A DNA stretch of 64,000 bases, taken from NCBI GenBank assembly GCA_944389215.1, contig CALXLN010000006.1, forward strand, positions 1 through 64,000, read 5' to 3'. Both the position numbers and the translations under genes were made by a program. This document shows, one piece after another, positions 4,141 through 58,999 of the stretch; the first letter of the stretch is position 1, and every line of letters starts with the position of its first letter. The notes beneath the pieces are model-generated. The model had not been told where the DNA came from. It saw only the letters and a program-made list of their open reading frames with translations, and ran no database searches. This stretch comes from an uncultured Opitutales bacterium (GTDB taxonomy: Bacteria; Verrucomicrobiota; Verrucomicrobiia; Opitutales; Intestinicryptomonadaceae).

Positions 4141-5031
4141 TTACTTATTGTAGGACTCTTTCACAAAAGGAGCTTTTTGCAGGTAATCCAAGCTCTTTTT
4201 TACGCTCACTTCCGGCGGGAAGTCGTAGCGTTCAACCTCAACGACCAAGTGTTTCGCGCCGGAGGGAGCTATATTTTTAAATATCGCGTCAAAACCTACC
4301 ATTCCGCTTTCGCCGAGTTCCTTGTGGTCTTTGATATGAAGCATTTGGAAACGGTTCGGGTATTTTTTGAAGTATTCGACAGGGCTGTTTTGACCTCTCA
4401 CGACCCAATATACGTCCATTTCAAAGAATACCAAATCAGGATCGGTATTTTTTATGAGATAGTCGTACATCATCTCTTTGCCTTCGATTTTCTGGAATTC
4501 AAAAGCGTGGTTGTGGTAGCCGAATTTCAGACCTGCATCCTTGCATTTTTTTCCGACAGCATTGTAATATTTGCAATAGGTGTCCAAATCCTCAACGGTC
4601 TTGGGCGTGGGCATCCATGGCATTACTATATACTCCATACCTGCCGCCTTGTGGGCTGCGATAGTTTCATCCCACCATTTGAGCGATTCGGAGAAGTCTT
4701 TTGTTTTCAATTCCTTGTCTGAAAGCGCCTTTGACGTGTGCGAAGACAAAACTTTCATTCCGTATTTTTCCACATCGGCTTTAAATTTTTCGGGAGTCTG
4801 CCCGTAAAATTTTCCATCGGAATATCCGGCGGCTTCAACAGCCGTATAGCCCATTTCGCCCACGACCTTCATGGCGGCTTCATAATCTTTTTTAAACATA
4901 TCGCGCAGCGAATAGAGCTGCAAAGCGATATCTTTTTTCACGCCTTCCGCCTGGCTCTGGGCAAACATGGGGTTTGCGATAAATGCGGCCAACGAAACCG
5001 CCGCCGCCACGAACATTGTCTTTAATTTCAT
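4141..5031 (-). CDS. Secreted sugar phosphate isomerase/epimerase-family TIM barrel (xylose isomerase-like)
   Basis: A 296-residue AP-endonuclease-2/xylose-isomerase-like barrel (PF01261) with an N-terminal signal peptide (residues 1-24, ending 'NPMFAQ'). Metal and substrate positions of the family are visible: 'QLYSLRD' (38-44), 'VEAAGY', 'GYHNHAFEF' (171-179), 'FFEMDVYWV' (203-211), 'MLHIKDH' and 'VVEVERYD' with E265. Family members isomerise, epimerise or dehydrate sugars. Exported versions are frequent in PVC bacteria and Bacteroidetes and include enzymes acting on 3-keto-sugars, but the substrate cannot be read from sequence. It is a single-gene unit with its own terminator; a TTGACT box on the minus strand near 5173-5178 may be part of its promoter. 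Confidence 0.85.
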   Translation of the reverse strand: MKLKTMFVAAAVSLAAFIANPMFAQSQAEGVKKDIALQLYSLRDMFKKDYEAAMKVVGEMGYTAVEAAGYSDGKFYGQTPEKFKADVEKYGMKVLSSHTSKALSDKELKTKDFSESLKWWDETIAAHKAAGMEYIVMPWMPTPKTVEDLDTYCKYYNAVGKKCKDAGLKFGYHNHAFEFQKIEGKEMMYDYLIKNTDPDLVFFEMDVYWVVRGQNSPVEYFKKYPNRFQMLHIKDHKELGESGMVGFDAIFKNIAPSGAKHLVVEVERYDFPPEVSVKKSLDYLQKAPFVKESYNK

Positions 5032-6397: not shown

Positions 6398-6865
6398 ATG
6401 AAAATATCAGCCTATGCGATATTATTTTCCGCAATCGGACTTGTAGTAGGATATTTTTCGTCATTGCTGCAAACCGAAGCCCTCGCGCAATGGTATCCGC
6501 TGCTTAACAAGCCCTCGGCAACGCCAGACGGCTGGGTTTTCGGAGTGGCATGGACTGCAATATACATACTTTCGGGAATCTCGATTGCCATCGTAGCGGC
6601 TTCCGACAGCCCGCGCAAAGGATTTTTCATACGCCTTTTTACAATAATTCTGGCAATGAATTTTCTGTGGAGCGCCTTATTTTTTCAAATGCGCAACCCA
6701 ACCGCCGCGCTGGTTGAAGTTGCAATGCTGGATGCCGCGCTTGTATTTTACACGGTTCACATATGGAAGACTGGCTTCAAAACAAGCGCAATTTTGTTTC
6801 TGCCGTATCCTATATGGTGCGCCTTTGCGACATATCTAAACGCATATATCGCAATCGCAAACTAG
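6398..6865 (+). CDS. tspO: TspO/MBR family tryptophan-rich sensory membrane protein
   Basis: A 155-residue protein with five transmembrane helices and the TspO/peripheral benzodiazepine receptor signatures 'WYPLLNKPSATPDGWVFGVAWTAIYILSGIS', 'NFLWSALFF' and the C-terminal 'PYPIWCAFATYLNAYI'. Homologues bind porphyrins and influence stress and tetrapyrrole handling; in bacteria they lie in the outer or cytoplasmic membrane. It is probably monocistronic, since a perfect 17-bp hairpin terminator follows. Confidence 0.92.
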   Translation: MKISAYAILFSAIGLVVGYFSSLLQTEALAQWYPLLNKPSATPDGWVFGVAWTAIYILSGISIAIVAASDSPRKGFFIRLFTIILAMNFLWSALFFQMRNPTAALVEVAMLDAALVFYTVHIWKTGFKTSAILFLPYPIWCAFATYLNAYIAIAN

Positions 6866-6923: not shown

Positions 6924-9341
6924 TTATTGATAGAAACGAATGTAATCTATCTCATATTTCATTGGAAAAGCGTTTTTATCCAACTTGTCCGCGCCTTCGG
7001 GCCTAAGCGCCAGATTCAGCAAAAAATAATGCGGCCGCTGAAACGGATTTATTTTGCCGCCTTTCTCGCCGTTAATGGTTTTCGACAAATCGACTTCGTT
7101 TAGCAGGCGGTCGTCTAGATAAATGCGGATGAATTTTTCGTCCCAGTCCATACGCCAGACATGAAAGTTTGAGGCCCAATCAGGATCTCTCTTTAGAAAT
7201 TCATCTAAGGGAATTTTTGCGTTGTCCCAAACCGATTTTACGTTTTCGCCCGCGGAGCCCCATGCAGCGTTTGCAAGAATTGTCGGAACTCCGTCTATGC
7301 GGTAAAATTCCATAACATCCACCTCGCCGCAAGACGGCCAAGGATAAACATTTTCCCCGCTCTGGCTGCCTAGCGTCCAAATCGCCGGCCAAGAGGCCTT
7401 TCCAACGGGAATGCGCGCGCGGACTTCCAGCCTGCCGTACTTGTATTCTTTTTTATTTTTTGTTGTTATTGAAGCAGAAGTGAATTCTATGAATTCGCGC
7501 TCTTTTGTCCAATTCTTAGACCCTTTTTCGTAATTGGGATTGGGCTTTTTCTCAATGCGTGCCTCCAGAATTAAAAGTCCATCCTTGCAGTATGCGTTTT
7601 CAGTCTGGTACCACTGGCGCTCGCGATTGCGCACAAAACCCTGTTCGTAATTCCAAAAATCGGGATTGGGCTTGCCGTCAACGTTGAATTCGTCAGCCCA
7701 AACAAGTTTCATCTTGCGGGGAGGCTCGAGAATTTGCCCGTCTTGAAGCAGTTTTTCGCGCAATTTCGGATAATTCACGTCTTGAACGGCAATATTGGCG
7801 TCTATCGCCATAGAAGCGGCGGTAGCGGCGCTCTGGCCCAAAATCATAAACACCGGCTCCATTCTAATCGAGCCGAACGCCACGTGAGACGATGACAGCG
7901 CAACTGGAACAAAGAGGTTTGAACATTCGCTCTTTTTTGGAACTATGCTTTTGTAGCTAACCGGATAAGAGGATTTTATCCCCTTTTCAAAACCGCCTTC
8001 GTTGGCTATTTGTCCGTTGTGTATTACGCGCTCGACATGGTGGGAATCCATAGTATAGCTGCCAAGCCCGACGGAATCTTCGGCGACGGCTTTTCCGGTG
8101 CAATTTGCCTGCGTCATAACGTAGTCCGAAAGCAGCCTGCGGGCTTCGCGCACATAGAGCTCGTGCGGCCAATTGTCGGTTTCCGGAAATTCGTAGGCGT
8201 CGAGGCCGTATTCGCTTACGCGCTTGCGCAAAGATTCTGGAATAGACGGATCGTTGGCAAGAAAATACATAAAGCCCTTCTGGTAGTTTACGTGGTCCTG
8301 AAAAATCTTTTCGCGCTCGGCATAAGAGCCTTCCGCCCAGCCGAAATTTCCGCCGACATAGTCTATCGAAACGGGGCCTGCGTTGTTGCAATCGCCCTCA
8401 TTGAGCTTTACAGGGCCGTGTTTGTACCGCAAATCCCAAAAATCGGGCGACGGAGCGGCGTTGACATAGCGCTTCAGAAGTTCGTACCGCTCCACGCGGT
8501 ATTCGTCGGGCTTAGGCCAGGGAACATGCTTGCCGTCCTTCATGGCCCACGTGCGGAAACAATACGACTGAAGCTTTTTGTCGCCGACGCCCAATTTATC
8601 CACCTTTGTATCGGTAATTCCCTCGAGAAGTCCGCTGGACGGGTCTCCGGGCTTTACGTACGGGTCGAACTGGTGGCGGTACACGTGGCTCGTCTTTGAA
8701 AAGTACGTGCCGTTGTAGTCTTCGCCAAAACGCGAATTGTCTTCGCGGCCTACCATGTAGGAGATTCCCGCCCGTGCGAACAAATCGCCCTCGTAAGTGG
8801 CGTCGACAAACATTTTGCCCTTTGCGGAATTGCCGTTCTCAAAAATAATTTTCGTTATTTTAAGGCCGTCTTTCTCAACTTTGTGCAAACGGTGCTCAAA
8901 GAATACCGGCACGCCAGCCTCCGCAAGCATAGTCAAAAATGTTTTTTCAGCTTCGCTTGGGCGAAAGTGCCTCCACTTTCCCACTTTTTCAAAAAATTCT
9001 ACGGCCATGCCGCCTATGGCGTCTTTTTTGCCCAAATCGGTTTCCGTAAGTCCGGCCGAAGTAAGCCCCCCAACATGCCTTCTAAAGACATACAAAGCTG
9101 CGGTTTTCCCCATGCGCTTGGCTTGAATCGCCGCCGCGACTCCGCCGGGTGTTCCCCCGTAAACTACGACATCGTAATCCCCCTCCACTGGATTGCTTGC
9201 CTTAGGAACCGGATAATAATATTTCAATCCGGGATTCGGCGTTGAAGGCTTGGCAAGCTCCAACGCGTTCGCTTCGGCTCCGACAAACGCCAAAAATGCA
9301 AATGAGAAAGCCGCAAGTGTTGTAATTGTATGTTTATTCAT
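6924..9341 (-). CDS. Secreted fusion: FAD-dependent oxidoreductase (FAD_oxidored) plus glycoside hydrolase family 16
   Basis: A single uninterrupted 805-residue protein. Residues 1-26 form a signal peptide ('MNKHTITTLAAFSFAFLAFVGAEANA'-like, ending AEANA). Residues about 55-540 form an FAD oxidoreductase of the PF12831 type: dinucleotide motif 'VVYGGTPGGVAAA' (G62-G67), 'RRHVGGLTSAGL', 'FVDATYEGDLFARAG' and the C-terminal 'FGSIRMEPVFMILGQSAATAA'. Residues about 544-805 form a GH16 jelly roll: 'KLVWADEFN' at its start, 'YGRLEVRARIP', 'WPAIWTLG', the catalytic beta-bulge 'GEVDVMEF' with E673 as nucleophile, D675 and E678 as acid/base, and a final 'YEIDYIRFYQ'. GH16 enzymes cleave beta-1,3/1,4-glucans or galactans; the FAD part may oxidise the released or terminal sugar (inference). 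The ATG at 9377 is possible but adds 12 residues before the signal peptide. There is no frameshift or stop between the domains. Confidence 0.9.
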   Translation of the reverse strand: MNKHTITTLAAFSFAFLAFVGAEANALELAKPSTPNPGLKYYYPVPKASNPVEGDYDVVVYGGTPGGVAAAIQAKRMGKTAALYVFRRHVGGLTSAGLTETDLGKKDAIGGMAVEFFEKVGKWRHFRPSEAEKTFLTMLAEAGVPVFFEHRLHKVEKDGLKITKIIFENGNSAKGKMFVDATYEGDLFARAGISYMVGREDNSRFGEDYNGTYFSKTSHVYRHQFDPYVKPGDPSSGLLEGITDTKVDKLGVGDKKLQSYCFRTWAMKDGKHVPWPKPDEYRVERYELLKRYVNAAPSPDFWDLRYKHGPVKLNEGDCNNAGPVSIDYVGGNFGWAEGSYAEREKIFQDHVNYQKGFMYFLANDPSIPESLRKRVSEYGLDAYEFPETDNWPHELYVREARRLLSDYVMTQANCTGKAVAEDSVGLGSYTMDSHHVERVIHNGQIANEGGFEKGIKSSYPVSYKSIVPKKSECSNLFVPVALSSSHVAFGSIRMEPVFMILGQSAATAASMAIDANIAVQDVNYPKLREKLLQDGQILEPPRKMKLVWADEFNVDGKPNPDFWNYEQGFVRNRERQWYQTENAYCKDGLLILEARIEKKPNPNYEKGSKNWTKEREFIEFTSASITTKNKKEYKYGRLEVRARIPVGKASWPAIWTLGSQSGENVYPWPSCGEVDVMEFYRIDGVPTILANAAWGSAGENVKSVWDNAKIPLDEFLKRDPDWASNFHVWRMDWDEKFIRIYLDDRLLNEVDLSKTINGEKGGKINPFQRPHYFLLNLALRPEGADKLDKNAFPMKYEIDYIRFYQ

Positions 9342-9774: not shown

Positions 9775-11109
9775 CTACGCAACGCGCTCGACAACAATCG
9801 ACGGCGGATTCGGGCGGCGCGGAGCAAGCCTGTATGCGTTGCGCAAATAGTCGATGCCGGAGTCGAGATTTGTTTCGTCGTTGTAATGGATCATAAGAAG
9901 CGGTTCGCCCTGTTTTACTTGGGTTCCGACTTTCTTAATTTCGGTAACGCCGACATACGGGTCTATTTTTCCGGATTTTGTAGTGGAAAGAATCTGGACG
10001 CCTCTTGCAATCATACCTGCGTTGATATTGTGCACATAGCCGCGTTTCGGCGCGGGAAGCTTGCGCGAATGTTTGGGCATCGGATATTTTGAGGGATCTT
10101 CCAGCCACGGAGCGGCTCCGCCTTGCATCTTTATCATTTCAAGCAATTTCTTGTATGCGGAGCCGTCTTCTATGACGCGTTCCACGGACTGTTTGGCAGA
10201 CAGCGTAGACCCCGCAACTCCCGCCAGCCTTAGAATTTCCATTCCGAGCTTAAGAACAAGCTCCTTCATATCTTCCGTGCCGTTGCCGCGCAGGAAATCT
10301 AGAGCTTCCATTACTTCAAGGCCCATTCCCACGGAATTTCCGAGAGGCTGGTTCATATCGGTAACCAACGCCACACAGCGGTGCTTCATAACCCTTGCAA
10401 CGCGCGTTATAGTGCGGGCAAGCTGCTTTGCCTGTTCCAAATCGCGCAAGAACGATCCGTTGCCCCATTTTACGTCGACAACCAACCCGTCTGCACCGAC
10501 GGCAAACTTCTTGCTCAAGACGCTTGCGGTTATTAGCGGAAGACTGGGAATGGTTGCAGTCATCTGGCGCATCTTATAAATTTTTGCGTCGACAGGCGAT
10601 ATTTTATTGTCGTGCTCGCAGACGGCGCATCCTATCTTCGACAACTGCTTAAAGAACTCGTCCAAAGACAAAGCCGTTTTGAAACCAGGTATTGAAGAAA
10701 GCTTATTGTGGACCGTAATTACAAAATCTTCATCGTTGCTTGACATCCCCGGCACCACAACTCCGCAAGCTGCGCCTATTGCCGAAAGAATCATAGTAGT
10801 TTTATCGCCGACACCGCCGGTAGAATACTTGGCAACCTTTGGGCGGGTTATGCTGGAAAGCTCTAAAGTTTCGCCCGTCAAAATCATTTCATCGGCGAAA
10901 ACTGCAGTTTCCTGCGCAGCCATATCCTTGAAAAATATAGCCATAATAAGCGCCGCCATCTGATAATCGGGCATATCGTCGTCCAAAATGGAATCTACAA
11001 TATTTCTTACTTCGTCTTCCGTAAATTCATGACCCTCGCGTTTCTTTTCTATGAGATACGCATACGAAGGCTTTGATGGTACTTTGCCTGTCAGTTTTCT
11101 AATTGCCAT
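9775..11109 (-). CDS. Thymidine/pyrimidine-nucleoside phosphorylase family protein with an altered active-site loop
   Basis: A 444-residue protein with the whole architecture of the family. The alpha domain with 'HEFTEDEVRNIVDSILDDDMPDYQMAALIMAIF' is followed by the phosphate loop 'AKYSTGGVGDKTTM' (93-106), 'YKMRQMTATIPSLPLITASVLSKKFA' (R181, S196 and K200 or K201 fit the pyrimidine-binding residues), 'VTDMNQPLG' and the C-terminal alpha/beta domain. It should cleave a pyrimidine nucleoside with phosphate. Two departures are visible: the usual KHSTGG is KYSTGG, and the usual [20 protein letters not shown] is 'SSNDEDFVITVHNKLSSIPG' (122-141). Substrate or activity may differ. A good Shine-Dalgarno, TAGGAG, precedes the ATG. 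It is a single gene. Confidence 0.85.
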   Translation of the reverse strand: MAIRKLTGKVPSKPSYAYLIEKKREGHEFTEDEVRNIVDSILDDDMPDYQMAALIMAIFFKDMAAQETAVFADEMILTGETLELSSITRPKVAKYSTGGVGDKTTMILSAIGAACGVVVPGMSSNDEDFVITVHNKLSSIPGFKTALSLDEFFKQLSKIGCAVCEHDNKISPVDAKIYKMRQMTATIPSLPLITASVLSKKFAVGADGLVVDVKWGNGSFLRDLEQAKQLARTITRVARVMKHRCVALVTDMNQPLGNSVGMGLEVMEALDFLRGNGTEDMKELVLKLGMEILRLAGVAGSTLSAKQSVERVIEDGSAYKKLLEMIKMQGGAAPWLEDPSKYPMPKHSRKLPAPKRGYVHNINAGMIARGVQILSTTKSGKIDPYVGVTEIKKVGTQVKQGEPLLMIHYNDETNLDSGIDYLRNAYRLAPRRPNPPSIVVERVA

Positions 11110-16160: not shown

Positions 16161-17309
16161 CTACATATCTTCGCGCGGTTTTTCCGCCAGGCGTTTTGCC
16201 CCTTTCTTTATTATATCAAGAGCCTCTAAATAAGCATCGCTTCCCCTGCTTACATTTAATAAAATCTCCGAAGACTCAGGTCTGTCGAAAGAAATTATTT
16301 CAATCGGATAACCTCGCGCGGACAATCCGTTTTCGCCTTCGGATTCGGGACGGCGCACTTTGCAAATTTCAAAAAGCTTTTTTATTTCCGCGGAAGTCAG
16401 CGGGCTCCTTCCCCCCGGATTTTTTCCGTACGCGGAAAGAGGCGTATCGTAATACGGCGCGTTTAAGTCTATCCAAAGTCTCAACGCGAAAAACTCTCCG
16501 TCTGAAAGTTCGCACCCGCCGTGGCCGTTGCGCAAAATCCAGACAATTCTACTTTGTTTCGCGCCCCAAAAGTTTGCCGGATGGATTTTTTTCATGCCGT
16601 CCACATTGGCCGCAACGCCTTCTTTCCATATAATTTCCGTATACGATTTTGAAAACGCCAAACCTCTATCGGGCGACAGAATCATTTTTGCCGCTCCACC
16701 GCACTCGAAATCGTGGCAATCTACGCAATGGTTGTCCAATATCGGGCGTATGGTTTTTTGAAACGAAACGGGCTTTCCGAAAATGCCGTCAGGATATTTT
16801 TCGATTTCAGGCGCAACGGTCTCAGCTTTTGCGCTTATGCGGACCGGTTCCGCGGACAAGTCTGCAAATTCCATAAAACCGCCTTGCTTGGGCGTGTCAA
16901 AAGCCCGCGACGTAAAAACCATATCTCCGTTGGCGTCCAACGCCTGAAAAAAAAGTTTTTTACCCGCGGGCGCGCAAAATCTTGCCGAACCATCCCTGCC
17001 AACATTTGCCGTCCCAAGCGGCGCAAGCAAAATACCGTCGTAATACCCGACGCCCGGAGACTGTTTGCGCGCGCCTTCCCAAAATCCGCGCGAATTTCCG
17101 GACGCCTCCAAGTTTTCAACAACGCGCAACTTTTTTATTTCTCCGCGCTTAACAGACTTCATCAGCTCTCCGCCGTAAATATCGCAAACGCAAATATCCA
17201 CATTTGCGCAAGATTCTCCAGCACGAACGGCAATAGCCGCCAATCCCAATATGGACACAAATAAAACTTTTGGGAAAAGTTCCGCCGCGAATTTATTTTT
17301 TTTCGACAT
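16161..17309 (-). CDS. Truncated hydrazine-synthase-alpha-like monohaem protein
   Basis: A 382-residue exported protein (hydrophobic signal segment residues 12-30) that matches only the C-terminal half of the 812-residue neighbour at 20605. Shared blocks are 'LFFQALDANGDM', 'KTIRPILDNHCVDCHD', 'ILSPDRGLAFSKSY', 'FWGAKQSRIVWILRNGHGG', 'LWIDLNAPYYDTPL', 'GRSPLTSAEIKKLFEICK' and 'FDRPESSEILL'. One c-type haem site is present, CVDCH (C195, C198, H199). The beta-propeller and the first CxxCH of the longer paralogue are missing. It lies 41 bases after the Tat-signal FAD oxidoreductase and is probably co-transcribed, which suggests it could accept that enzyme's electrons (inference). The start at 17309 is chosen over 17345 because the signal peptide begins with MSKKNK. 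Confidence 0.8.
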   Translation of the reverse strand: MSKKNKFAAELFPKVLFVSILGLAAIAVRAGESCANVDICVCDIYGGELMKSVKRGEIKKLRVVENLEASGNSRGFWEGARKQSPGVGYYDGILLAPLGTANVGRDGSARFCAPAGKKLFFQALDANGDMVFTSRAFDTPKQGGFMEFADLSAEPVRISAKAETVAPEIEKYPDGIFGKPVSFQKTIRPILDNHCVDCHDFECGGAAKMILSPDRGLAFSKSYTEIIWKEGVAANVDGMKKIHPANFWGAKQSRIVWILRNGHGGCELSDGEFFALRLWIDLNAPYYDTPLSAYGKNPGGRSPLTSAEIKKLFEICKVRRPESEGENGLSARGYPIEIISFDRPESSEILLNVSRGSDAYLEALDIIKKGAKRLAEKPREDM

Positions 17310-17350
17310 AAAATAATTTCCGGCCGAATCCCGCCCAATGCACATTTGAA

Positions 17351-18712
17351 TTAAACGTTCGGAACAATGGCATTATGCTTTTTCAAGACTTTTCTAATTT
17401 CGCCTATATCCAAATCCGCCGGAGACTTTCCTTCAGTTGCCGCCAAAGCCGCAGCCACCGCCGCTGCCTGCCCCATAGCCATGCACGACGCCTGCACGCG
17501 CAAAGCAGAATTGGCAAGCCTGTCGCTGGAAACACACCTTCCCGCCGCGAGAATATCGCGCGAACCTTTCGGAACCATAGCCGAAAGACAAACGCATGGA
17601 ACTTTCCCGCTCTCCAGCATTTTAGGTTTTACAGTATTGTGAACGTGCAAATCTATCGGATAAAAGGAGTAGCATACGGAATCGGGATAGGCGCGCGCGG
17701 AGGCGTAATCCTCCGCCGTTATGACGGTTTCGCCCTCGATGCGGTATGTTTCCCTCACGCCGGCCTCGGTTTTTACATAGTCTATTTTAATGTTCTCCAA
17801 ACCTTTTTGCCGCTTTAAAAACCTATATATTCTCAGGAAGGATTTTCGCGCGGAGATATTTGTCCTAGTCTGAAGTTCCGACGTCGCCGAATTTGCATTC
17901 AATGTATGCTGGCTGTTGAACCCGCCTTCTTTAAGCACTCCGATTATGCCTACCCAAAGGTCGGACGACTCCAACTCTCCGCTTTTTATCGCCGCTGCAT
18001 AAGCTTTTTTAAGTGCCGCCTTATCGACGGCTTCAAGGCTGTAGTTGGAAATTCCAAATATGAGAGTTCCCGGTTGGATTTCGTCTTCCCTTATCCGCTT
18101 GAATCCCGCCAAATGCACGGCGGAGGCGTTGCCGGTACAATCTATAATCTGCTTTGCGCGCACGCCGAAAACTTCGTCGCGCGCGGCGACGCTAATCATC
18201 CAGTTTGCTCCGCCGGCGGATTCCCGCGATATTTCCATCGGGAAACAATAATAGCAAAGATTCACTCCCGCCTCGAGCGCAGCCTCTTCGGCAAGGCACG
18301 CGTACAAATATTCGTTTAATTTTACCTGGTACTTCCAATGCGGCAAATTTTTTGCGGTAAAATCCGGAAATGAATCTCCGTGGGTTTCCACCGTTTTGCA
18401 AACAAGCTCCCACCCGATTCCGGAGATTATCTGTTTTCCCCACGCATAAAAAAGGCCCGGAAAATTTACGCCGCCCGTAGTCATGGTTCCACCCAGCTGA
18501 GAACCGCTTTCTATAACAAGCGTCCTGGCTCCGAGTCTGGCGGCCTGAATTGCGGCGGCCGTGCCGGCCGTTCCTCCTCCTATAACGGCCACGTCATAGA
18601 CATTCTCGCCCATCTTGCCGCCTGCTAACGGAGCGCATCGCGCTGAAACGGGAAACGAACCCAAACCTACTGCGCCTATTGCCGCATTGCGAAAAAATTC
18701 CCTGCGTTGCAT
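17351..18712 (-). CDS. Tat-exported FAD-dependent oxidoreductase (FAD_oxidored family)
   Basis: A 453-residue protein with a twin-arginine signal ('MQRREFFRNAAIGAVGLGSFPVSA') and the PF12831-type flavoprotein pattern. It shows 'VYDVAVIGGGTAGTAAAIQAARLGARTLVIESGSQLGGTMTTGG' (GxGxxG with the FAD ribose acidic residue), 'QIIDCTGNASAVHLAG', and the C-terminal 'AGRCVSSDRLANSALRVQASCMAMGQAAAVAAALA'. Tat export implies folding with FAD in the cytoplasm. It is first gene of a pair with the monohaem protein at 16161. Substrate unknown; sugars or their derivatives are plausible given the neighbours. Confidence 0.88.
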   Translation of the reverse strand: MQRREFFRNAAIGAVGLGSFPVSARCAPLAGGKMGENVYDVAVIGGGTAGTAAAIQAARLGARTLVIESGSQLGGTMTTGGVNFPGLFYAWGKQIISGIGWELVCKTVETHGDSFPDFTAKNLPHWKYQVKLNEYLYACLAEEAALEAGVNLCYYCFPMEISRESAGGANWMISVAARDEVFGVRAKQIIDCTGNASAVHLAGFKRIREDEIQPGTLIFGISNYSLEAVDKAALKKAYAAAIKSGELESSDLWVGIIGVLKEGGFNSQHTLNANSATSELQTRTNISARKSFLRIYRFLKRQKGLENIKIDYVKTEAGVRETYRIEGETVITAEDYASARAYPDSVCYSFYPIDLHVHNTVKPKMLESGKVPCVCLSAMVPKGSRDILAAGRCVSSDRLANSALRVQASCMAMGQAAAVAAALAATEGKSPADLDIGEIRKVLKKHNAIVPNV

Positions 18713-20604: not shown

Positions 20605-23043
20605 TCAACGCCCAAGGTTTTCGCCCGTTTGAACGGGAATATTTTTTATAGTTTCAGGGTCTTTTATTTTCTCTCCGCCGGAACGCGCGCGCCTTGATGC
20701 GTCTTCCAATGCGACAAATTTCTTAAACCTTTCCCGGCGCAATTTTGAAATGGAACTCTCCTCAAAGCCTGCCATATCCGCGCGGGGTTTTTCATTCAAG
20801 CGGGCGGCGCCCATTTTTATGATTTCCAATGCCTCCCCATATTTGGAACTTTTGGGATCGAGACCTTTTAGCACAGAAGACATCTCTGGACGGTCGAACG
20901 AAACCTCCTCGAATTTATAATCGGACGCTTTTATGCGTTTTTCCAGCCATTTGGGCTCTTTTTTTACCGGGGAAACTTTCCCGCACAATTCAAAAAGCTT
21001 TGCGATTTCATCAGCCGAAAGCGGGCAGCGCCCAGTGGGGTTTTCCGGATATGCACAGTCTTCGGTGGAATAATACGGAGCGTTCAAATCTATCCATAAA
21101 CGCAGGGCGGCAAACTCGGCTTCGGACAGCTTCCCGCCGTGCCCGGATCTGATTCTTGCGACAATAGGGCTGTGCTTCGCGCCCCAAGTGTTTGCCTCTT
21201 GAACTTTGTCGGGTCCCGCCCCTATGGCTTTGACATATTTTTTACTGTGGAGCTCCAAATAAGAGCGGTTAAAAACCAGCCCCCTGTCGCCCGCTAAGAC
21301 TAGCTTTCCCGCCCCTTTACCGCCGACATCGTGGCAGCCCAAACAATGCTTGTCAAAAATCGGTTGGACGGTTTTCATATAAGAAAAACACTCTCCCGCA
21401 GCCGGAAGCCCTGATGAGTCTATTTTGTCGGGTTTGCCGTTTTTGAACGCGTGCCCAGATATGGGCGGCGGCGAAAAACGCGATTCATGGCATCCGGCGC
21501 ATGAAACAATTTCGCCCGGAAGCGCGGAAAATCCGCTGCGCATAGTCTGCAGCATGTCCCCGTTGGCATCCAAAGCCTGCAAATATACGAATTTATCCGC
21601 AGGCACTTCAAAAAATGCCGAACCGTCTTCGCGAACGGGAACAATTCCGAGCGGCTGCTTGCGGTCGTAGTCGTCAAAATTCATCGCAGGCGCTTGCGAG
21701 CCTTCATTTTCCCACCATCCGGGGCTGTACGTCAGCTTGAAATGGTCTTGCACTACGCGCAGCCATTTTATGTCGCCGCGCTTTATGCCTTTCATATGCG
21801 TACCCTCGTAAACGTCTCCGACGTACACCAGACTTTTGGCATCGCTTTCCCACGAACGCCTATCAACAGAAGCTTGCGGCAGCGGGCGGACGGCAACGAT
21901 TTTCGGGTCGAAAATACCCAAGTCGCCCTCCCCCTCGACAACTAGCCTCTCATCTCCGGTTTCCACATTTACAAGATACAACCCCATCTTGCGGGAATTT
22001 TCAGAAATAGTCCTCGAAACCAAAATAAGTTTTTCAGACAATGGTTCAGGATCTTCATATTTGAGTTTGAGGGCATTCATTGAATCGGCAAAAACGTCTC
22101 CCGGTTTGTCGATGAGCTTGCGTGCCTCGGCGGGAAATATTTTTACTACGCTTTTTTCGCCTTCCACGTCTATTTTTCTGTCTATTATCGCCAGCGCGCC
22201 CCAGGCAATATTGTGGCATGAACCCAGTATTGCCGCCACTGTTGTAGAATCCGGCATTTGCACGGCGTTGAGGCACGGCTGTTTAGTCTCCTGGCCCCAA
22301 TAGAGAGTGTGCGCAGTTCCGTCCGGATTGCATGTCCAAAGCCCTTGGGCGCCGGAAAAGTTTCTGTCGACATATTCCCAGCGCGTATATAGTATTCTGC
22401 CGTCGCGCAGCACATGCGGCATGTGTTCAAATTCTATGGAATTTCCTATTTGGACAATGTTGGACCCGTCGGAATCCATCTTGTAAAGATTGCACATTAT
22501 ATGTCTATTGCATCCGCAATATTTAGCCGCGCGGGTTGACGCAAATACGATTGACCCGTCGCCAAGATACGCGGGGTCTATGTCGCAAGCCTCAGCAACG
22601 CGCGTCAGCCGAACGGCCTTTCCGGAATTAAGGTCTGTTTCGTATATGCTGTAAGAATCTTTCCGGTTGCCGCGCATAGAAAACACAATTTTTTTAGCGT
22701 CGTAAGAAACTTCCGGATCGCGCACAATTCCGTCTTTGGAATGAGCCAGAACCTTGGGAGCTGCCGGATTGCCTTCCCCGTCAAAATCGACAATATACAT
22801 AGTCGAATTTCCCGCGCATGCATTCCATGCGCCCTCGTTGATTTCTCCGAACTGAAATATGTTCGCGGTATTGTGGTGGTCCTGCGGAAACTGTTTCCGT
22901 TCCACAAAGACCAGAGATTTCCCAGCCAGTTCCGGAACTCTCTCAATCTTAGGGGCGGAAAAAGCAGCTGGTGCGCAAAGCCACAACAATGCGGCGTCCG
23001 CCGCCAAAAAAGCCGATAAAAATTTTTTCAGTTTCGCGTCCAT
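20605..23043 (-). CDS. Hydrazine-synthase-alpha-like secreted dihaem protein with beta-propeller
   Basis: An 812-residue protein with a signal peptide (residues 1-29, ending 'AAFSA'). Residues about 75-410 contain TolB/WD40-like propeller blades ('DPEVSYDAKKIVFSMRG', 'DIDPAYLGDGSIVFASTR', 'FEHMPHVLRDGRILYTRWEYVDR'). The C-terminal part carries two c-type haem sites, CAGCH (515-519) and CLGCH (567-571). This order and length match the alpha subunit of anammox hydrazine synthase and its many homologues in PVC bacteria (HZS_alpha). No hydrazine synthase beta/gamma genes are present, so anammox activity is not implied. It lies downstream of the lipoprotein glycosidase and a Tat FAD oxidoreductase on the same strand. 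A role as extracytoplasmic redox partner or sugar-linked enzyme is inference. Confidence 0.8.
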   Translation of the reverse strand: MDAKLKKFLSAFLAADAALLWLCAPAAFSAPKIERVPELAGKSLVFVERKQFPQDHHNTANIFQFGEINEGAWNACAGNSTMYIVDFDGEGNPAAPKVLAHSKDGIVRDPEVSYDAKKIVFSMRGNRKDSYSIYETDLNSGKAVRLTRVAEACDIDPAYLGDGSIVFASTRAAKYCGCNRHIMCNLYKMDSDGSNIVQIGNSIEFEHMPHVLRDGRILYTRWEYVDRNFSGAQGLWTCNPDGTAHTLYWGQETKQPCLNAVQMPDSTTVAAILGSCHNIAWGALAIIDRKIDVEGEKSVVKIFPAEARKLIDKPGDVFADSMNALKLKYEDPEPLSEKLILVSRTISENSRKMGLYLVNVETGDERLVVEGEGDLGIFDPKIVAVRPLPQASVDRRSWESDAKSLVYVGDVYEGTHMKGIKRGDIKWLRVVQDHFKLTYSPGWWENEGSQAPAMNFDDYDRKQPLGIVPVREDGSAFFEVPADKFVYLQALDANGDMLQTMRSGFSALPGEIVSCAGCHESRFSPPPISGHAFKNGKPDKIDSSGLPAAGECFSYMKTVQPIFDKHCLGCHDVGGKGAGKLVLAGDRGLVFNRSYLELHSKKYVKAIGAGPDKVQEANTWGAKHSPIVARIRSGHGGKLSEAEFAALRLWIDLNAPYYSTEDCAYPENPTGRCPLSADEIAKLFELCGKVSPVKKEPKWLEKRIKASDYKFEEVSFDRPEMSSVLKGLDPKSSKYGEALEIIKMGAARLNEKPRADMAGFEESSISKLRRERFKKFVALEDASRRARSGGEKIKDPETIKNIPVQTGENLGR

Positions 23044-23460
23044 AAGTTGTAATCTCCATTTTTATTTTACCGCTAAAACGGCACTCCCCCTGAAATAATC
23101 TTTCTGGGAGTATCATCCGCCCGCATATTTTCCGCGCGTCAAATCCGAAGTTACATCGTTATAATATGCAAAGTTTTATTTATATGTCAAAATTTTTTTG
23201 TTATAAAAAAAACAGCAAATTCTATTTTCCCCGCTGCAACAAGAGGCAACTCCCGCAATCACCCTTCCCTCTGCGCAAAAAAACCGCGCGGTGTGTTTTG
23301 GCAAACTTTGCTATAAGGCGTTGCGCGACGCTCCGCCCTCGTTTCCACGGGGAAAAATATACCGCTGAGTCCATTGCCGTATTCTGAAAAGCACGATATG
23401 CCGCCCACCCGCGCGCCGACATCCGGTGGAGCGCGACAATGCCTCTGGCCCCCTCCGCGC
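23044..23460. other. Intergenic region between the glycosidase and the dihaem protein
   Basis: No gene seen. The AT-rich half beside 23044 is a possible promoter of the dihaem protein gene; the other half is GC-rich. No terminator or known element recognised. Confidence 0.45.
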
Positions 23461-25404
23461 CTATATTTCGCCTTCCATAGCGTAGCTCCAAGGGGCGATT
23501 ATTTTGCCGTTTACCGCGCGGTATTCGGCGTCCGAAAAATTTGCAATAACCGAAATCCCGTTTGAGAATGTCGTGCGCTGCACTTTTTTGTCGTCGGTCA
23601 AATATTCAAAATCCGTCATCCGCTCAAAAGCCACTTTGCGTGCGACTGCGGAAGCGCGCTTGTAGGAGGCTGCAATTTCATTTTTAAGGGAGTTCCAGTG
23701 GGTAACATCAAGACTGTAAATGGGCGGATAACCATATAGGGCGTTAAAGTTGTCGAACTTATACATAAGTTCAGGACAGCAGCAGTTGCTGTCGCCCCAA
23801 TACCAATAGTTCACAGCGCAGTCGTGGTAGACAAGCTCCCAAAGCGGAACGCGGAACTGCGGATTTAACATAAATTTTTCAGTTTGAGCAGGCATATCGG
23901 AACGCAAATGGACGTGGGTCATTTTTCTGCCGGAATCGGGAACCCTAAATTTTGCCGGGCTTAGCAGACCTTCCGCATAATGGTAGTGCGCAACGTAAAT
24001 TTCGTGCCCGCATTCGACGCCGTTTATCAGCCCAAGCGAAGTGAGATAATCTTGCTGTTTGCGTATGTATTCGGCGCCTACGCGCCTGGTTGCCGGATGC
24101 TTCGGGCTGTAGCATTCCCTTACCTGGGTCGCAGCCTGAACGTCTATGAAACGCGAATTGTAGGGAATATTTTTCAACTCTGCGGGAACATTTATTTTTG
24201 TGAGCTCGTAGGCGGCAATTTCGCAAACGGAATTCTGCCAGTACATCTTTCCGTCCGTTCCGTGGACTTTCCAAGCCTTTCTGCGCTCGCCGTTTTCGTC
24301 AATGTTTACGATATCGGGCCAATATTTGGTGTTTACGCTTCGCTCTACGCGGCACTTTATTATTTTGTGGGCAATATCTGCAGGAAGGACATCGCGGTAA
24401 ATATCGTATTTGCCGACGATAAACCCCAAACTTTTCAAATAGCGGCAGTCTTCGGGAGTTTCCGGCTCTATATAATTCCAGAGTACCCTGTCTATTCCGA
24501 GTTTTTGCATTTCATCCGCTATGGCGCGAACATTGCGCGCGGGCCTATTCGGAATTTCCGGGCGCCCGTACAAGCGGTTTGTCATGTTGTCTTCCCAAAT
24601 CCAAAAATCAGCCGCACCTTTCATCTGCTCCAAATGAGGCAGTTCGCGCGCCTTTTCGGAGAGCGTTTTTACGTATCCCATAGATTTTCTATATTCGCGG
24701 TACGCTCCCATAATTTCCGCAAGAGTCTTGCCGGCGATAAATCTCATTTTTCTAGGATAGCCGAACTTCCCCTTTTCAGAAATCCAATTCACCGCAGTGT
24801 GCGCAAGACCGGCGTTTTTAAAATTCAAAATTTCCGCGTCCACACCCTGCTCAACCGCCGAAAGCAGATAGAAATTTCCGCGCTTGAAGGCGAACATACC
24901 CATAGACCACCCAACGCCCCCGACACAACTTTGCTTTTTCGGCAGAGGGATGTCCTGCATATCCACCGGGAAAGCATATCCCGTGCCTATCGGATAAAAT
25001 CCTATATCGCCTTTTTGCATTTTCCACGCGGAAGGATAAGCCACCGGGGCAGGCATATCGCCGTCGCCCGAAAGCGCGAGTTCAAACTCAGAATCTCCCG
25101 CAAATTTCAAATTCGCGCGCATTGAGGCGCCGCGCGAACAAATTTCGTAAAAAATTTCCCCGCCTGAAACCGAAACATTTTTTATGTCAAACTGCGCCGG
25201 CAACTGGCAATACTTGCTGCCGTCGGAACGGTCTATGAGCACTATACCCTTCGAGGACGAAAGCGCCAAAATAAAATTTTCGTTTTGGATCCGCGCCAAT
25301 TCGTCCTCCACCCCAAAGTTTCCGCCGCCGCTTAAATGCGAACAAGCCGCCGATATTAACGACGCAAGCGGCAGAAATAACGCTATTATCTTTCCTGCTT
25401 TCAT
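23461..25404 (-). CDS. Lipoprotein glycosidase-like protein (beta-sandwich plus TIM barrel), family uncertain
   Basis: A 647-residue protein with a probable lipoprotein signal ('LPLASLISAAC', cysteine about residue 20). The first 200 residues look like a galactose-mutarotase-type beta-sandwich. From about residue 265 a barrel is suggested by 'FWIWEDNMTNRLYG', 'KLGIDRVLWNYIEPETPEDCRYLKSLGFIVGKYDIYRD', 'YNSRFIDVQAATQVRECYSPKHP' (candidate acidic D) and 'LGLINGVECGHEIYVAHYHYAEG' (candidate acidic E). The layout resembles DUF5696/GH101-like proteins common in gut and soil Verrucomicrobiota and Bacteroidetes, but I cannot fix the family. It follows the FAD oxidoreductase at 25461 after 56 bases, probably in one transcript. 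Confidence 0.65.
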   Translation of the reverse strand: MKAGKIIALFLPLASLISAACSHLSGGGNFGVEDELARIQNENFILALSSSKGIVLIDRSDGSKYCQLPAQFDIKNVSVSGGEIFYEICSRGASMRANLKFAGDSEFELALSGDGDMPAPVAYPSAWKMQKGDIGFYPIGTGYAFPVDMQDIPLPKKQSCVGGVGWSMGMFAFKRGNFYLLSAVEQGVDAEILNFKNAGLAHTAVNWISEKGKFGYPRKMRFIAGKTLAEIMGAYREYRKSMGYVKTLSEKARELPHLEQMKGAADFWIWEDNMTNRLYGRPEIPNRPARNVRAIADEMQKLGIDRVLWNYIEPETPEDCRYLKSLGFIVGKYDIYRDVLPADIAHKIIKCRVERSVNTKYWPDIVNIDENGERRKAWKVHGTDGKMYWQNSVCEIAAYELTKINVPAELKNIPYNSRFIDVQAATQVRECYSPKHPATRRVGAEYIRKQQDYLTSLGLINGVECGHEIYVAHYHYAEGLLSPAKFRVPDSGRKMTHVHLRSDMPAQTEKFMLNPQFRVPLWELVYHDCAVNYWYWGDSNCCCPELMYKFDNFNALYGYPPIYSLDVTHWNSLKNEIAASYKRASAVARKVAFERMTDFEYLTDDKKVQRTTFSNGISVIANFSDAEYRAVNGKIIAPWSYAMEGEI

Positions 25405-25460
25405 AAAGTTTCGTTAAGATATTTTTCGCGCCGGTTTTGGCGCGCTTAAACCTGCGGTTC

Positions 25461-26819
25461 CTAGGATTTCAAAGAGTGCGGCGTCTTTGATTCAGAAACG
25501 AACTTTGCAGCCGCGCGCCCCGCGGAATAGCCCATATCAACAGCGTTTCCCGTTACGCGGTAGCTTCCGTGCGCAATTCTATCGCCGCTTATGCACCTGC
25601 CTGCCATCATCAGGCAGTCTACATCGCGGCATATTAGAGCGCGCAATGGAATATCGTATGGCTTGAACCCCTCCAAATGGGTTATTGTTTCGCTTCTGTT
25701 GATTTCCTCAGTATGGGCATGCAAATCAACGCCAAAAGTAGCGCGGGTTACGGCGTCCGGATGTCGGGCGCCGGAAAGCAAATCTGAAGTCGATACTTCA
25801 TAAAGGCCTTTAACCCTGCGGCCTTCGCGGATGCCAATATGCTCGCTCGTTGCCACAACGCGGACATTGCGCCAAGGGGAATTTGTCTTTGCAAGTGCGT
25901 CCGCCATTTTAAAAACCTCGCGGCGGGCGCGGATTGTCGCGCGCGTGATTTCTTCGGCGTTGTCGCAATGCACGCCGTACTCGTGGTTAAACATCATAAG
26001 CAGAATGTTGCCGCCCAGATGAAATAGCGTGGGCATGTTGTACGACGGCTCTATGCCCGCCGCGCGCAGGTCCTGCAAATTCAACTTTGTCGACTCTACA
26101 TGTCCGGCGAGGGAATCTTTTTTATAAGCCGTAATTCTGCCGCCTAATTTTTCGACATCCTCAACTGCCACAATCGCGTTAAAAGAGCACGGCTGGACGA
26201 TTCTGTCCGAATTGTGCCCAATTTCGAACTCCGCTCCGGCGCGCGCGCACACGTCGCCGTCGCCCGTACAGTCTATAAAAATTTTCGCTCCCCATGCATG
26301 GCGGCCAGATTTTGACTCAGTTACGAGAGTCTTCATTTTTTCACCTTTTTTATAGGCCGCACAGCATGTCGTGAAATAACGCACATCAACGCCCGCTTCT
26401 GAAATCAAATCCTCCAAAATAATTTTCATAGCTTCGGGCTCGTATACAAAATCTTTGTCGTTTCCGCCGTGGCGGGCGTTGCGGGCGTCGAGGCGGGATA
26501 TAATCTCTGGGCATATGCCCGTTTTTTTGAAGTCGAATATCCAAGAAAGCTGCCCGCGTGTCCAAGTTCCGCCAAGACATCCTCCTGCTTCCAAAATAAG
26601 CGTTTTCATTCCGGCCCGAGCTGCGCCTAAAGCTGCCCCAATACCGGCGGGTCCGCCGCCGCAAACTACAATATCGTATTTATCGTTAAAATCTATCGGA
26701 CGAGCCGGCTCCAAGAAGTTTCCGCCGCTTTGCGATATATCCTCCGCAACGGATTTTCCATAAAATCCAGCCAGTCCCGCGGAAAGCGCCCCGGCTTTTA
26801 AGAAACTTCGTCTGTCCAT
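25461..26819 (-). CDS. Tat-exported FAD-dependent oxidoreductase (FAD_oxidored family), second copy
   Basis: A 452-residue protein with a twin-arginine signal ('MDRRSFLKAGALSAGLAGFYGKSVA') and flavoprotein motifs 'YDIVVCGGGPAGIGAALGAARAGMKTLILEAGGCLGGTWTRG', 'IFIDCTGDGDVCARAGAEFEIG', 'IREGRRVKGLYEVS' and 'MMAGRCISGDRIAHGSYRVTGNAVDMGYSAGRAA'. It is a paralogue of the protein at 17351, about equally long, and of the N-terminal domain of the GH16 fusion. The lipoprotein glycosidase gene follows closely. Substrate not readable from the sequence. Confidence 0.88.
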   Translation of the reverse strand: MDRRSFLKAGALSAGLAGFYGKSVAEDISQSGGNFLEPARPIDFNDKYDIVVCGGGPAGIGAALGAARAGMKTLILEAGGCLGGTWTRGQLSWIFDFKKTGICPEIISRLDARNARHGGNDKDFVYEPEAMKIILEDLISEAGVDVRYFTTCCAAYKKGEKMKTLVTESKSGRHAWGAKIFIDCTGDGDVCARAGAEFEIGHNSDRIVQPCSFNAIVAVEDVEKLGGRITAYKKDSLAGHVESTKLNLQDLRAAGIEPSYNMPTLFHLGGNILLMMFNHEYGVHCDNAEEITRATIRARREVFKMADALAKTNSPWRNVRVVATSEHIGIREGRRVKGLYEVSTSDLLSGARHPDAVTRATFGVDLHAHTEEINRSETITHLEGFKPYDIPLRALICRDVDCLMMAGRCISGDRIAHGSYRVTGNAVDMGYSAGRAAAKFVSESKTPHSLKS

Positions 26820-36187: not shown

Positions 36188-37396
36188 CTAATTGCGAAGG
36201 CGGCGTTCGCGCGCATTTTTAAGTCCCCGTTTTTTTGCCTTGAGCGCCTTTGCGGCGGCGTCCTCGCGCGCGGCCCTTTCGGACTGCGATTCAAATGTTT
36301 TTGCGGGAACATCCCATTGCGCAAACATTTCCGCCGTAGACGGCGACAGCTTTGCCGGATCCACAACAACATGGGTGATAGTTTTGCGGCGGTTCGTATA
36401 GGTTATGTCTACGAGCCCGTCCTTGCGCTGGACGACCGCCGGATAGGAAAATTCCCCGGTGGCGTCCTCCAAAACAAGCGCGGGCTGCCAGCGCATTCCG
36501 TCGGAGGAAATTGCAACGTTAAGCGGGCTGCGGATTTTCCAATTTTGGGTATGGTTGTAAACTAGCAAGTGGCGCCCGTCCTGCAATGTTACAGCATCGG
36601 TGCCGGAGTTCGGATTGGGCAGGCCGGTAGACGCGAGTTTGCTCCAAGTTTTGCCGCCGTCGCGCGACCAAGTTTGGTACACGAAACCTATGTCGCGGGG
36701 AGTTCTGCCAATAGCCTGCAAATCACCGTTCTTATGAATTAGTATAGAAGGCTGGATTCCGCCGATTTCGTCTTTTTGATTTACGTAAGGAGTGCGCGTC
36801 CAAGTTTTTCCGTCGTCGTCGGACAGCCAGAAATAAACGCGCCAATCGTCGGCGGAAAATTCGTCGCTGGCGGGGAGAATTATGCGCTTGCCGACTCTTG
36901 CGGGCTTATTTTTTATAGGGCCGAAATTGCCTTTTGGCGCGAGCGGTTCGGGAGTCGACCACGTTTGGCCTTCGTCTTTTGAAATGGTCTGCATTCCGCG
37001 CCAGTTGTGCCAATTGCCGCTTTGTTTGAAGAACAGCGTGATGGAATTGTCCGAATTGCGGAACAAGACGGGATTCCAGCACGGTGCCGGCTTTTCTTGC
37101 GTCATTGTTGCGGAAGCCGCTATGCGCGGATTTGACCATTTGCCGTCTTTAAATTTTGAAATCCAAATGCAAACGTCGTCCGCGCCCTCGCGCGTGCCTG
37201 CGAAATACGCCACAAGCAAACCGCCGTCCAGTGTTTCCAATACGGTGGACGCGTGGCAGGACTCGAAAAATTCCCCGGGTTGAAAAATATCTTGGCGCGA
37301 CACTATGCCGCTTTGTTTGTCTAAAACTTCGCGCGGAGTTTCAGCAGCGCAAATTTGCGCGGCAAGAACCAACAATATAGACGTGAAAAATTTCAT
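36188..37396 (-). CDS. Secreted sialidase-superfamily (BNR/Asp-box) exo-glycosidase
   Basis: A 402-residue protein from the ATG at 37396, with a signal peptide ('MKFFTSILLVLAAQICAAE'). It forms a six-bladed propeller with Asp boxes SxDxGxTW at 'SKDEGQTWS', 'SDDDGKTWT', 'SRDGGKTWS' and a degenerate 'SSDGMRW', plus the BNR_2 entry motif 'CHASTVLETLDGGLLVAYFAGTREGADDVCIW'. True GH33 sialidases need an arginine triad, which I could not verify here; this subtype is widespread in PVC bacteria and may cleave another sugar. The tail is a lysine/arginine/alanine-rich helix ('AAREDAAAKALKAKKRG'), which is unusual. The upstream ATG at 37432 would precede the signal peptide by 12 residues and is rejected. 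Confidence 0.82.
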   Translation of the reverse strand: MKFFTSILLVLAAQICAAETPREVLDKQSGIVSRQDIFQPGEFFESCHASTVLETLDGGLLVAYFAGTREGADDVCIWISKFKDGKWSNPRIAASATMTQEKPAPCWNPVLFRNSDNSITLFFKQSGNWHNWRGMQTISKDEGQTWSTPEPLAPKGNFGPIKNKPARVGKRIILPASDEFSADDWRVYFWLSDDDGKTWTRTPYVNQKDEIGGIQPSILIHKNGDLQAIGRTPRDIGFVYQTWSRDGGKTWSKLASTGLPNPNSGTDAVTLQDGRHLLVYNHTQNWKIRSPLNVAISSDGMRWQPALVLEDATGEFSYPAVVQRKDGLVDITYTNRRKTITHVVVDPAKLSPSTAEMFAQWDVPAKTFESQSERAAREDAAAKALKAKKRGLKNARERRLRN

Positions 37397-37587
37397 GCGG
37401 TATTTGATAACATTAAACACACCATATATCAAGACGCAAAAAATTCCGTAAAATTTTCAATGGAGCTTTACTTTAAGTACAAAAAATTTATTTGATAAAA
37501 CTAAAGCAATTGGTCAATATTACTGAAACTTTTGTAGCGGTATATCGTTGAAAATATATTTAAGAGGGGAAGAATTATAATTTTACC

Positions 37588-56720: not shown

Positions 56721-58267
56721 TAATTGTCATTTGTAGGTTGTGTGGTATCTGCATTCGGAGGTATGGCTGGTGCACCTTCAAATGGAAATCCAATCGGAAG
56801 TCCATCTACAATTTCAACAATATCTTTCGTTACGGAATTTATCCCATCTTCACACATTGTAATAGAAGTAGGTTGAGATGTCTTATTATGACTAATCTCT
56901 GGACTTTGATCAAGCCGTAGCAAAAAAGGATATTGGTAACCTTTCCCATCAGTTCCAATAAATCTAACTGGCCGCCAATCAACGTTAACAACATTAGGAG
57001 AATATTCTTCCCATAGTAATGTTTTTGCCCTGTGTCCAACTCCGTTATCAGAATCAATCCAGGTAATATCTTTAAGTTTTTGTTCGGTATCTCCTTTGTA
57101 TTCCCATATAAGTTTTTTTCCAGAACAAGTCGTACCGTCTTTTTCAATCCAGCTTGTCTCAATCCGTTGGTCTGAACCTGCTGAATCAGATAGGACTCTT
57201 ATTGTATGTGCGATACCGTCGGAAGCGATAACAGAAAGATTGACGGCAGAAGATAATTGATTCTCCAAATTACTAATATCCGAATCATTCAGTCCGATTC
57301 TATCTAAAAGGTCTGCAATATTATTATCAAGCGCGGAAGCAAGTGAGTTTATTGCTGCCCACAAGTCCGAAATCATATTGAGGATTTCTTCTATCGTTGC
57401 CCATAAAAGATCATAGAGTGCAAATATAGCTTGAGCGACTGCGTCCATAATAGATTGCGTCAATCCCTCGAAAGAACTTCCCAATAATGCCGAAACAAAA
57501 TCGACAACCGCTTTTATTACAGTTTTTACAATTTCAGCGATGTCAGGCATTGGAAATGTCGTAAGAGCATAATATTTTGTACCTCCTGTTCCTTCAGTTT
57601 TCCCGACTTCAAATGGAACTCGAAAAATTAAATTAGGCGTTGGATACACTCCGTCCTCGTCTTCGCTTTCTTTAAATATCGTATAACAAATTCCGAACTC
57701 GTCCGTATAAATCATATCACCTGAACGTGGACGTTTTCCTCTCGTGTCAAAATATCTTTCAAGTGCATCTCTTATTGGATCAATTTTATCGAGCATAGTT
57801 TCAACCTTATCGTCAACGGTATCGATAAGAGCATAGACTGGTGCCATAATATTCTCTATAAGTTGTTTTACACCATTTGCACTTCCTGCATTACCCGATG
57901 TAATCGCGCCAATGATATTTGAAAGAAATCCGTAAAAAATAGAGGTAAACTGAGAAGGATTGGAGATTATAGGTAAAACCTCCTCCATTAACATTTGAAT
58001 TACTTTTGTCGCAATTCTTATTGGGTCAAGGTCAACGTCTCCAAGGGAAACTTTCCACAATTTAGGCGAACGAGACATTTCATAGGAATCAATCGCTAGT
58101 GTCGTTCCGTCGTGGGTACGCGTAATTCTATATCCTGCTCCCGGATTGATTCGCGTTGCCTCAATCATCGTAAGAATATCATTGAGACGTTCTGCTGTTA
58201 CTTGGTCGAGTAATGATTCACCAGCTTTGAAGCGTTTGAATTTTTGATGAGAGAGGTCTTTTATCAT
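56720..58267 (-). CDS. Phage tail/baseplate protein with C-terminal short beta repeats
   Basis: 515 residues. It starts with 'KFKRFKAGESLLDQVTAERLNDILTMIEATRINPGAGYRI', typical of minor tail proteins, then a helical part (residues 85-340), then at least five short repeats of the pattern x-D-G-(5-8)-hydrophobic strand between residues 348 and 488 ('ASDGIAHTIRVL', 'EKDGTTCSGKKLIW', 'DSDNGVGHRAKTLLW', 'GTDGKGYQYPFLLRL', 'CEDGINSVTKDIVEI'). The repeats suggest a beta-prism or fibre-like tip. Its ATG overlaps the stop of the gene before it (ATGA). Confidence 0.7.
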   Translation of the reverse strand: MIKDLSHQKFKRFKAGESLLDQVTAERLNDILTMIEATRINPGAGYRITRTHDGTTLAIDSYEMSRSPKLWKVSLGDVDLDPIRIATKVIQMLMEEVLPIISNPSQFTSIFYGFLSNIIGAITSGNAGSANGVKQLIENIMAPVYALIDTVDDKVETMLDKIDPIRDALERYFDTRGKRPRSGDMIYTDEFGICYTIFKESEDEDGVYPTPNLIFRVPFEVGKTEGTGGTKYYALTTFPMPDIAEIVKTVIKAVVDFVSALLGSSFEGLTQSIMDAVAQAIFALYDLLWATIEEILNMISDLWAAINSLASALDNNIADLLDRIGLNDSDISNLENQLSSAVNLSVIASDGIAHTIRVLSDSAGSDQRIETSWIEKDGTTCSGKKLIWEYKGDTEQKLKDITWIDSDNGVGHRAKTLLWEEYSPNVVNVDWRPVRFIGTDGKGYQYPFLLRLDQSPEISHNKTSQPTSITMCEDGINSVTKDIVEIVDGLPIGFPFEGAPAIPPNADTTQPTNDN

Positions 58268-58965
58268 TTCTTGTAAACCTCCTTATTCCAACCATTTTCG
58301 CCACTTGATAGATATGTTTCAGTGACCTTATATGTTCCATCTGCAAGACTTGAGTATGATATGCCTGTTTTCATCCACTCTCTTCCGTTGCCTATACTCG
58401 GAATACCTCCGCCACCTCCTATTGAGCCAATACTTCCAAGGGAGGGGCTACTCTGTGAAATGTATGTAACTGTTGCAGAATACCCAGGCACGTAATAGGA
58501 CTTTATGCCGAGTAATTTTGCTCCTAACGAGTCATCTTTATTCCAAGCTTTAAAATTTCCGTCATCATCAAAAATCGCGGCAGATGAACCGTCTTCTCGC
58601 TTTTTTATCCATTCTTTAAACTTTGAATGGGTTTCAATAGGCTCTTCACGCATGGTGGCGGCAACCTCGATTGTATTTTCTTCAGTATCATTTTCCGAGT
58701 CCCACTGAAATTCCGACCCCTCATAAGTAGCTGTTATAATTGCCCCCGCACCTGCTTTTTTTATGGTATAGGATTTACAATACAATCCGTCCCAAATAGG
58801 ATGCGGAGATTTACCAACTTCGGGCGCAAGAGATTTTGCAGCTGAAAACGGATATACAAACCAAACGGCGGTACTTGTCGAAACAGAGTCTTTTTGAATT
58901 ACTAATTCGCCTCGATTTTGAAGTATCTTTACTGTTCCATCACTATTTAATCTGACCTTAATCAT
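58264..58965 (-). CDS. Phage virion-associated protein, probably distal tail
   Basis: 233 residues. A compact N-terminal beta part ('MIKVRLNSDGTVKILQNRGELVIQKDSVSTSTAVWFVYPF') is followed by central strands and a glycine-rich linker ('SLGSIGSIGGGGGIPSIGNG', residues about 176-195). The C-terminus is 'WMKTGISYSSLADGTYKVTETYLSSGENGWNKEVY', a pattern seen in tail proteins of Akkermansia-like and other Verrucomicrobiota prophages as far as I recall. Position after the tape measure suits a distal-tail role. Function not established. Confidence 0.6.
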   Translation of the reverse strand: MIKVRLNSDGTVKILQNRGELVIQKDSVSTSTAVWFVYPFSAAKSLAPEVGKSPHPIWDGLYCKSYTIKKAGAGAIITATYEGSEFQWDSENDTEENTIEVAATMREEPIETHSKFKEWIKKREDGSSAAIFDDDGNFKAWNKDDSLGAKLLGIKSYYVPGYSATVTYISQSSPSLGSIGSIGGGGGIPSIGNGREWMKTGISYSSLADGTYKVTETYLSSGENGWNKEVYKK

Positions 58966-58999
58966 TATGAGTAAGGTCAGATTGTCAAAAAAACAGATG

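Follow-up and report, generated by a model that had tools for sequence, protein, structure and literature searches.

The 64-kb window, meaning the whole stretch of DNA that was analysed, comes from a gut-type Verrucomicrobiota bacterium and contains a minus-strand gene that joins a PF12831-family FAD oxidoreductase to a GH16 glycoside hydrolase in one polypeptide (Table 1). An earlier note on this DNA had described one continuous reading frame, giving no strand, and had raised the prospect of a missed stop at 7650-7760. Translation of the ORF on the minus strand bears out the continuous frame: there are 0 internal stops across 805 aa, and the frame is open through the junction of the two domains. 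The listed ORF also has an alternative start, a TTG at 9377, upstream of the ATG at 9341. Both domains are complete. In Pfam, PF12831 is matched at residues 57-531 with 325.7 bits and an E value of 7.2e-97, covering the whole profile (1-416/416), and PF00722 is matched at residues 620-756 with 37.1 bits. Because these scores exceed the curated cut-offs (a gathering threshold of 27 bits for PF12831 and a cut-off of 22 bits for PF00722), the matches are not due to chance. Comparison with solved structures by phmmer widened the GH16 similarity to residues 544-805. The two domains meet without a linker, the reading frame is kept, and both PF12831 and GH16 are whole.

Table 1. Coordinates of the fusion gene, its parts and a neighbouring gene in the window
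Feature	Position	Strand	Basis or remark
Fusion gene, 805 aa	6924..9341	minus	ATG at 9341, stop 6926-6924
Predicted Sec-type signal peptide, about residues 1-26	9264..9341	minus	No RR; similar orthologue N-termini
PF12831 FAD oxidoreductase domain, residues 53-538	7728..9185	minus	Pfam and AlphaFold2
Domain junction, residue 543/544 = 7713/7712	7701..7730	minus	Orthologue end-points
GH16 catalytic domain, subfamily-3 type, residues 544-805	6927..7712	minus	Pfam, phmmer, pLDDT, Foldseek
GH16 catalytic motif EVDVME, residues 673-678	7308..7325	minus	Alignment
PF01261 TIM-barrel neighbour, secreted-looking, outside the fusion	4144..5031	minus	Homologue near unfused flavoprotein in G001

Two AlphaFold2 models were used, each built with the relatives of its own domain aligned. 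The PF12831 domain, taken from the first, has pLDDT values mostly of 80-98, and the GH16 half, taken from the second, has values mostly of 83-98. The GH16 half of the first model was discarded, its GH16-only rows being misaligned, and the flavin half of the second is poor. Since each model is good in one half only, no domain arrangement is claimed; the real fusion protein presumably folds in both halves.

The flavin half carries the GGTPGG dinucleotide-binding glycine motif seen earlier, and the motif is kept in orthologues. A fold search with this half returned general FAD-enzyme matches only, at low coverage, among them urocanate reductase, flavocytochrome c3, MnmG and thioredoxin reductase. 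These matches are generic to FAD enzymes, so they identify no reaction. As for export, there is no RR within the N-terminal 45 residues of the fusion protein, and the signal cleavage site, after ANA, was called by eye; the protein is predicted to leave the cytoplasm by Sec. Two PF12831 paralogues in the window (17354-18712 and 25464-26819) have Tat-type RR motifs. The contrast that the earlier note drew between a plain signal in the fusion and twin-arginine signals in both paralogues therefore holds, but a plain signal does not set the fusion apart. The unfused orthologues, and many of the wider PF12831 relatives, likewise begin with Sec-type or lipoprotein-like sequences, and the supply of FAD outside the cytoplasm is thus a question for the whole subfamily. 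In general, the PF12831 proteins of Verrucomicrobiota and Bacteroidota resemble the fusion in having a full-length domain, and the orthologues from its genus share its type of signal; they differ in that they end at the junction or bear Golvesin_C or GDSL lipase domains rather than GH16.

The GH16 half has the ExDxxE catalytic motif, in the intact EVDVME form that had been reported, and is predicted to be active. It is modelled as a beta-jelly-roll, and the Foldseek matches listed for it are GH16 structures, the best being 6T2N (E 3.4e-25). GH16 subfamily 3 has three spaced tryptophans in finger 3 (PMC7419316); by eye, the alignment places these at WPAIW and PWPSCGEVDVME. In a tree of 70 domains, the fusion GH16 falls inside a clade with 100/100 support, its position within the clade being weakly supported. 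The clade comprises Prevotella and other Bacteroidota, an Akkermansia-type group, and Planctomycetota. The nearest solved structure by both sequence and fold is 6T2N, which comes from a paper on endo-acting mucin O-glycanases; of the four enzymes crystallised there, Amuc_0724 alone is from Akkermansia (PMC7419316). Genome G104 and the genome of the window share a class, and a second GH16 of G104 is nearly identical to 6T2N. Taken with the single crystallised Akkermansia enzyme, this near-identity and shared class point to Amuc_0724 as the protein in 6T2N and to Akkermansia as the source of G104; the Akkermansia-type GH16 of G104, which is 55% identical, may then be Amuc_0875.

What might the GH16 half cut? 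The fusion GH16 shares its catalytic motif with 6T2N, and also an insertion that the aligned laminarinases lack, but 6T2N lies outside the clade of the fusion GH16, with a separation supported at 100/100. The clade also includes Dyadobacter, Siphonobacter and Runella, genera not known for degrading gut mucin, which leaves mucin as no more than a candidate. The candidate substrates are mucin O-glycan, beta-1,3-galactan and beta-glucan. The nearest solved relative is a mucin O-glycanase and not an agarase or carrageenase, which changes the priorities for substrate. Within the genus, the closest unfused GH16 has an identity of just 58%.

The earlier note had called for a search of domain architectures and had allowed that the fusion might be a common, already characterised one. 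In the sampling here it is not common: the loci and genomes sampled yielded no further PF12831+GH16 protein. No second fusion was found in 80 relative-encoding loci, in 88 relatives, in a sample of 388 genomes from the phylum Verrucomicrobiota (whole protein as query) or, among the long-framed matches opened, in a class sample of 384 genomes (GH16 half as query); these samples overlap, the phylum and class sets each sample a larger group, and the weaker matches are covered in part. The only other locus among the 80 with both domains is L083, where they are ~4 kb apart. The class sample has many GH16s in frames of ordinary length, and the partners identified in the long-framed GH16s opened are sulfatase, GH43, CBM6 and repeat or binding domains; PF12831 is not one of them. 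No paper on a fusion of FAD oxidoreductase with GH16 was found in the literature searched. The architecture is rare, a new domain combination built from known parts.

Each part has other partners elsewhere. In the wider family, PF12831 is often joined to Golvesin_C and sometimes to GDSL lipase domains. The GH16 domains of the query clade are single enzymes or are fused to GH95 or GH43. Thus, both PF12831 and this GH16 clade readily gain partners. The GH95+GH16 and GH43+GH16 proteins (L087, L094, L095, L145) are similar to the fusion in that a GH16 of the same clade is joined to a carbohydrate enzyme, but their partner is a hydrolase and not a flavoprotein. A sulfatase+GH16 protein (L170) likewise has its GH16 C-terminal to another enzyme, in the same order, but this GH16 is outside the query clade. 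Single proteins with PF12831, GDSL lipase and Golvesin_C lie at L193 1909-5265 and L078 3941-6955. A Prevotella GH95 with a C-terminal GH16 of the query clade lies at L087 1646-4780, and the sulfatase with C-terminal GH16, at L170 1756-4314, is from a genome of the same order.

Orthologues of the flavin half provide a comparison for the join. Seven from the same genus are 69-83% identical to the PF12831 half of the fusion, and their frames stop within about 20 residues of the position homologous to the junction, or before it. The fusion itself is missing from every same-genus genome searched, and it is known from one MAG of 136 contigs, 80.3% complete. It could accordingly be an assembly chimera, in which two genes of one organism, or of two strains, were wrongly joined. 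We consider this quite improbable. The in-frame, domain-exact join, the host-like codons and the lack of a repeat at the join all argue against misassembly. Specifically, the codon-usage scores of the two halves are 0.089 and 0.070, vs 0.019-0.118 for the 24 window genes used as the reference, each left out in turn. The 30-bp junction sequence is single copy in the 64-kb window, and neither the window nor the fetched loci of this genome repeat any junction 16-mer. The junction 30-mer had no match among viral contigs, an uninformative place to look. In addition, the PF01261 gene past the GH16 end has a homologue near the unfused flavoprotein of G001, where gene order is rearranged, and a false join would therefore probably need two breaks. 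The fusion is probably real.

The neighbourhood of the unfused flavoprotein gene varies. It adjoins a gene for an MGH1-like secreted GH in G004, G005 and G008, for a GH10 secreted protein in G001, and for a CBM-like/HZS_alpha protein in G007; the MGH1-like homologue of G000 sits on a different contig. The flavoprotein adjoins a secreted GH in four same-genus loci, so that what recurs there as a pair of neighbouring genes is covalently joined in the fusion. The GH neighbours of the orthologues belong to families other than GH16, however, and a conserved shared substrate is hence not supported. The flanking genes gave no syntenic placement of the fusion locus in relatives: the gene at 9778-11109 is conserved in them, yet away from the flavoprotein gene. 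Directly downstream of the fusion, on the opposite strand, is a TspO/MBR gene (6398-6862), for which a search of 13 further same-genus genomes gave no match.

Genes for HZS_alpha or cytochrome c-type proteins occur near PF12831 genes both in the window and in G007. In the window, a minus-strand cluster (16164-18712 and 20608-26819) encodes two Tat PF12831 proteins, two HZS_alpha proteins and a GH129-like protein. One of the HZS_alpha proteins, at 20608-23043, matches cytochrome c as well; a flavin-cytochrome pairing in the cluster is possible. In G007, the protein beside the unfused flavoprotein (L119 10534-13773) is 1080 aa long, with CBM-like and HZS_alpha parts and a weak cytochrome c7 match.

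We put at about 50% the reading that this is a genuine, lineage-restricted gene fusion in which a secreted PF12831 flavoprotein gained a complete C-terminal GH16, with the flavin part working on the glycan that GH16 cuts or on what this cleavage yields. The protein would be exported by Sec, and the GH16 domain would cleave, by a retaining mechanism, a beta-linkage inside a polymer of galactan, O-glycan or beta-glucan type. The flavin part could then act on the same glycan or on released oligosaccharides, for example by oxidation of a sugar hydroxyl, and electrons would go to an acceptor in the periplasm, perhaps a c-type cytochrome. FAD loading, the oxidation chemistry, the electron acceptor and the coupling of the domains are speculative. 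The HZS_alpha cytochrome-like genes near PF12831 genes suggest an acceptor, no more. A 3-keto-glycoside route via the nearby PF01261 protein was also considered. Coupled cleavage and oxidation, suggested in the earlier note, rests on the fusion and on gene neighbourhood. The genomic link to secreted GHs in four same-genus genomes stands in its favour; the full sequence of events, with one secreted polypeptide cutting a glycan, redox-modifying the product and passing electrons to a periplasmic acceptor, is a tentative and rather unlikely proposal.

Slightly more plausible than that full sequence, though still improbable, is a real fusion whose domains merely travel together, with GH16 a co-exported enzyme or targeting module and no chemical coupling. 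Indeed, the same GH16 clade is joined to unrelated enzymes, GH95 (L087) and GH43 (L094, L095, L145, L088, L090), and the GHs that neighbour the flavoprotein vary between genomes. Set against this are the repeated occurrence of the flavoprotein beside secreted GHs in several genomes and the missing linker, which keeps the domains close together. It is unlikely, but less so than a chimera, that the PF12831 half lacks redox activity in this protein, either because it binds no FAD or because it has a non-redox role. In FAD-binding Rossmann folds, an acidic residue is usual after strand beta-2; in the fusion it is replaced (ALYVF vs LLIEP in many relatives), and the same-genus orthologues share the loss. 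Moreover, Sec export alone does not deliver FAD. Conversely, orthologues keep the remaining family signatures, and FAD enzymes, urocanate reductase and flavocytochrome c3 among them, match the fold.

Verrucomicrobiota and Bacteroidota encode many PF12831 proteins; in the literature searched, a single paper names the Pfam accession, and no experimental study of their function was found. With a partner enzyme whose substrate class can be tested, the fusion opens a route to what this family does. The GH-gene neighbourhood of the unfused flavoprotein backs that route, even should the fusion occur in a single species only. Elsewhere in the window, the region at 56723-61161 has weak matches to phage tail tape-measure families and could belong to a prophage or tail-like element. 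A BNR_2 (sialidase-like) protein with a signal-like N-terminus is encoded at 36191-37432.
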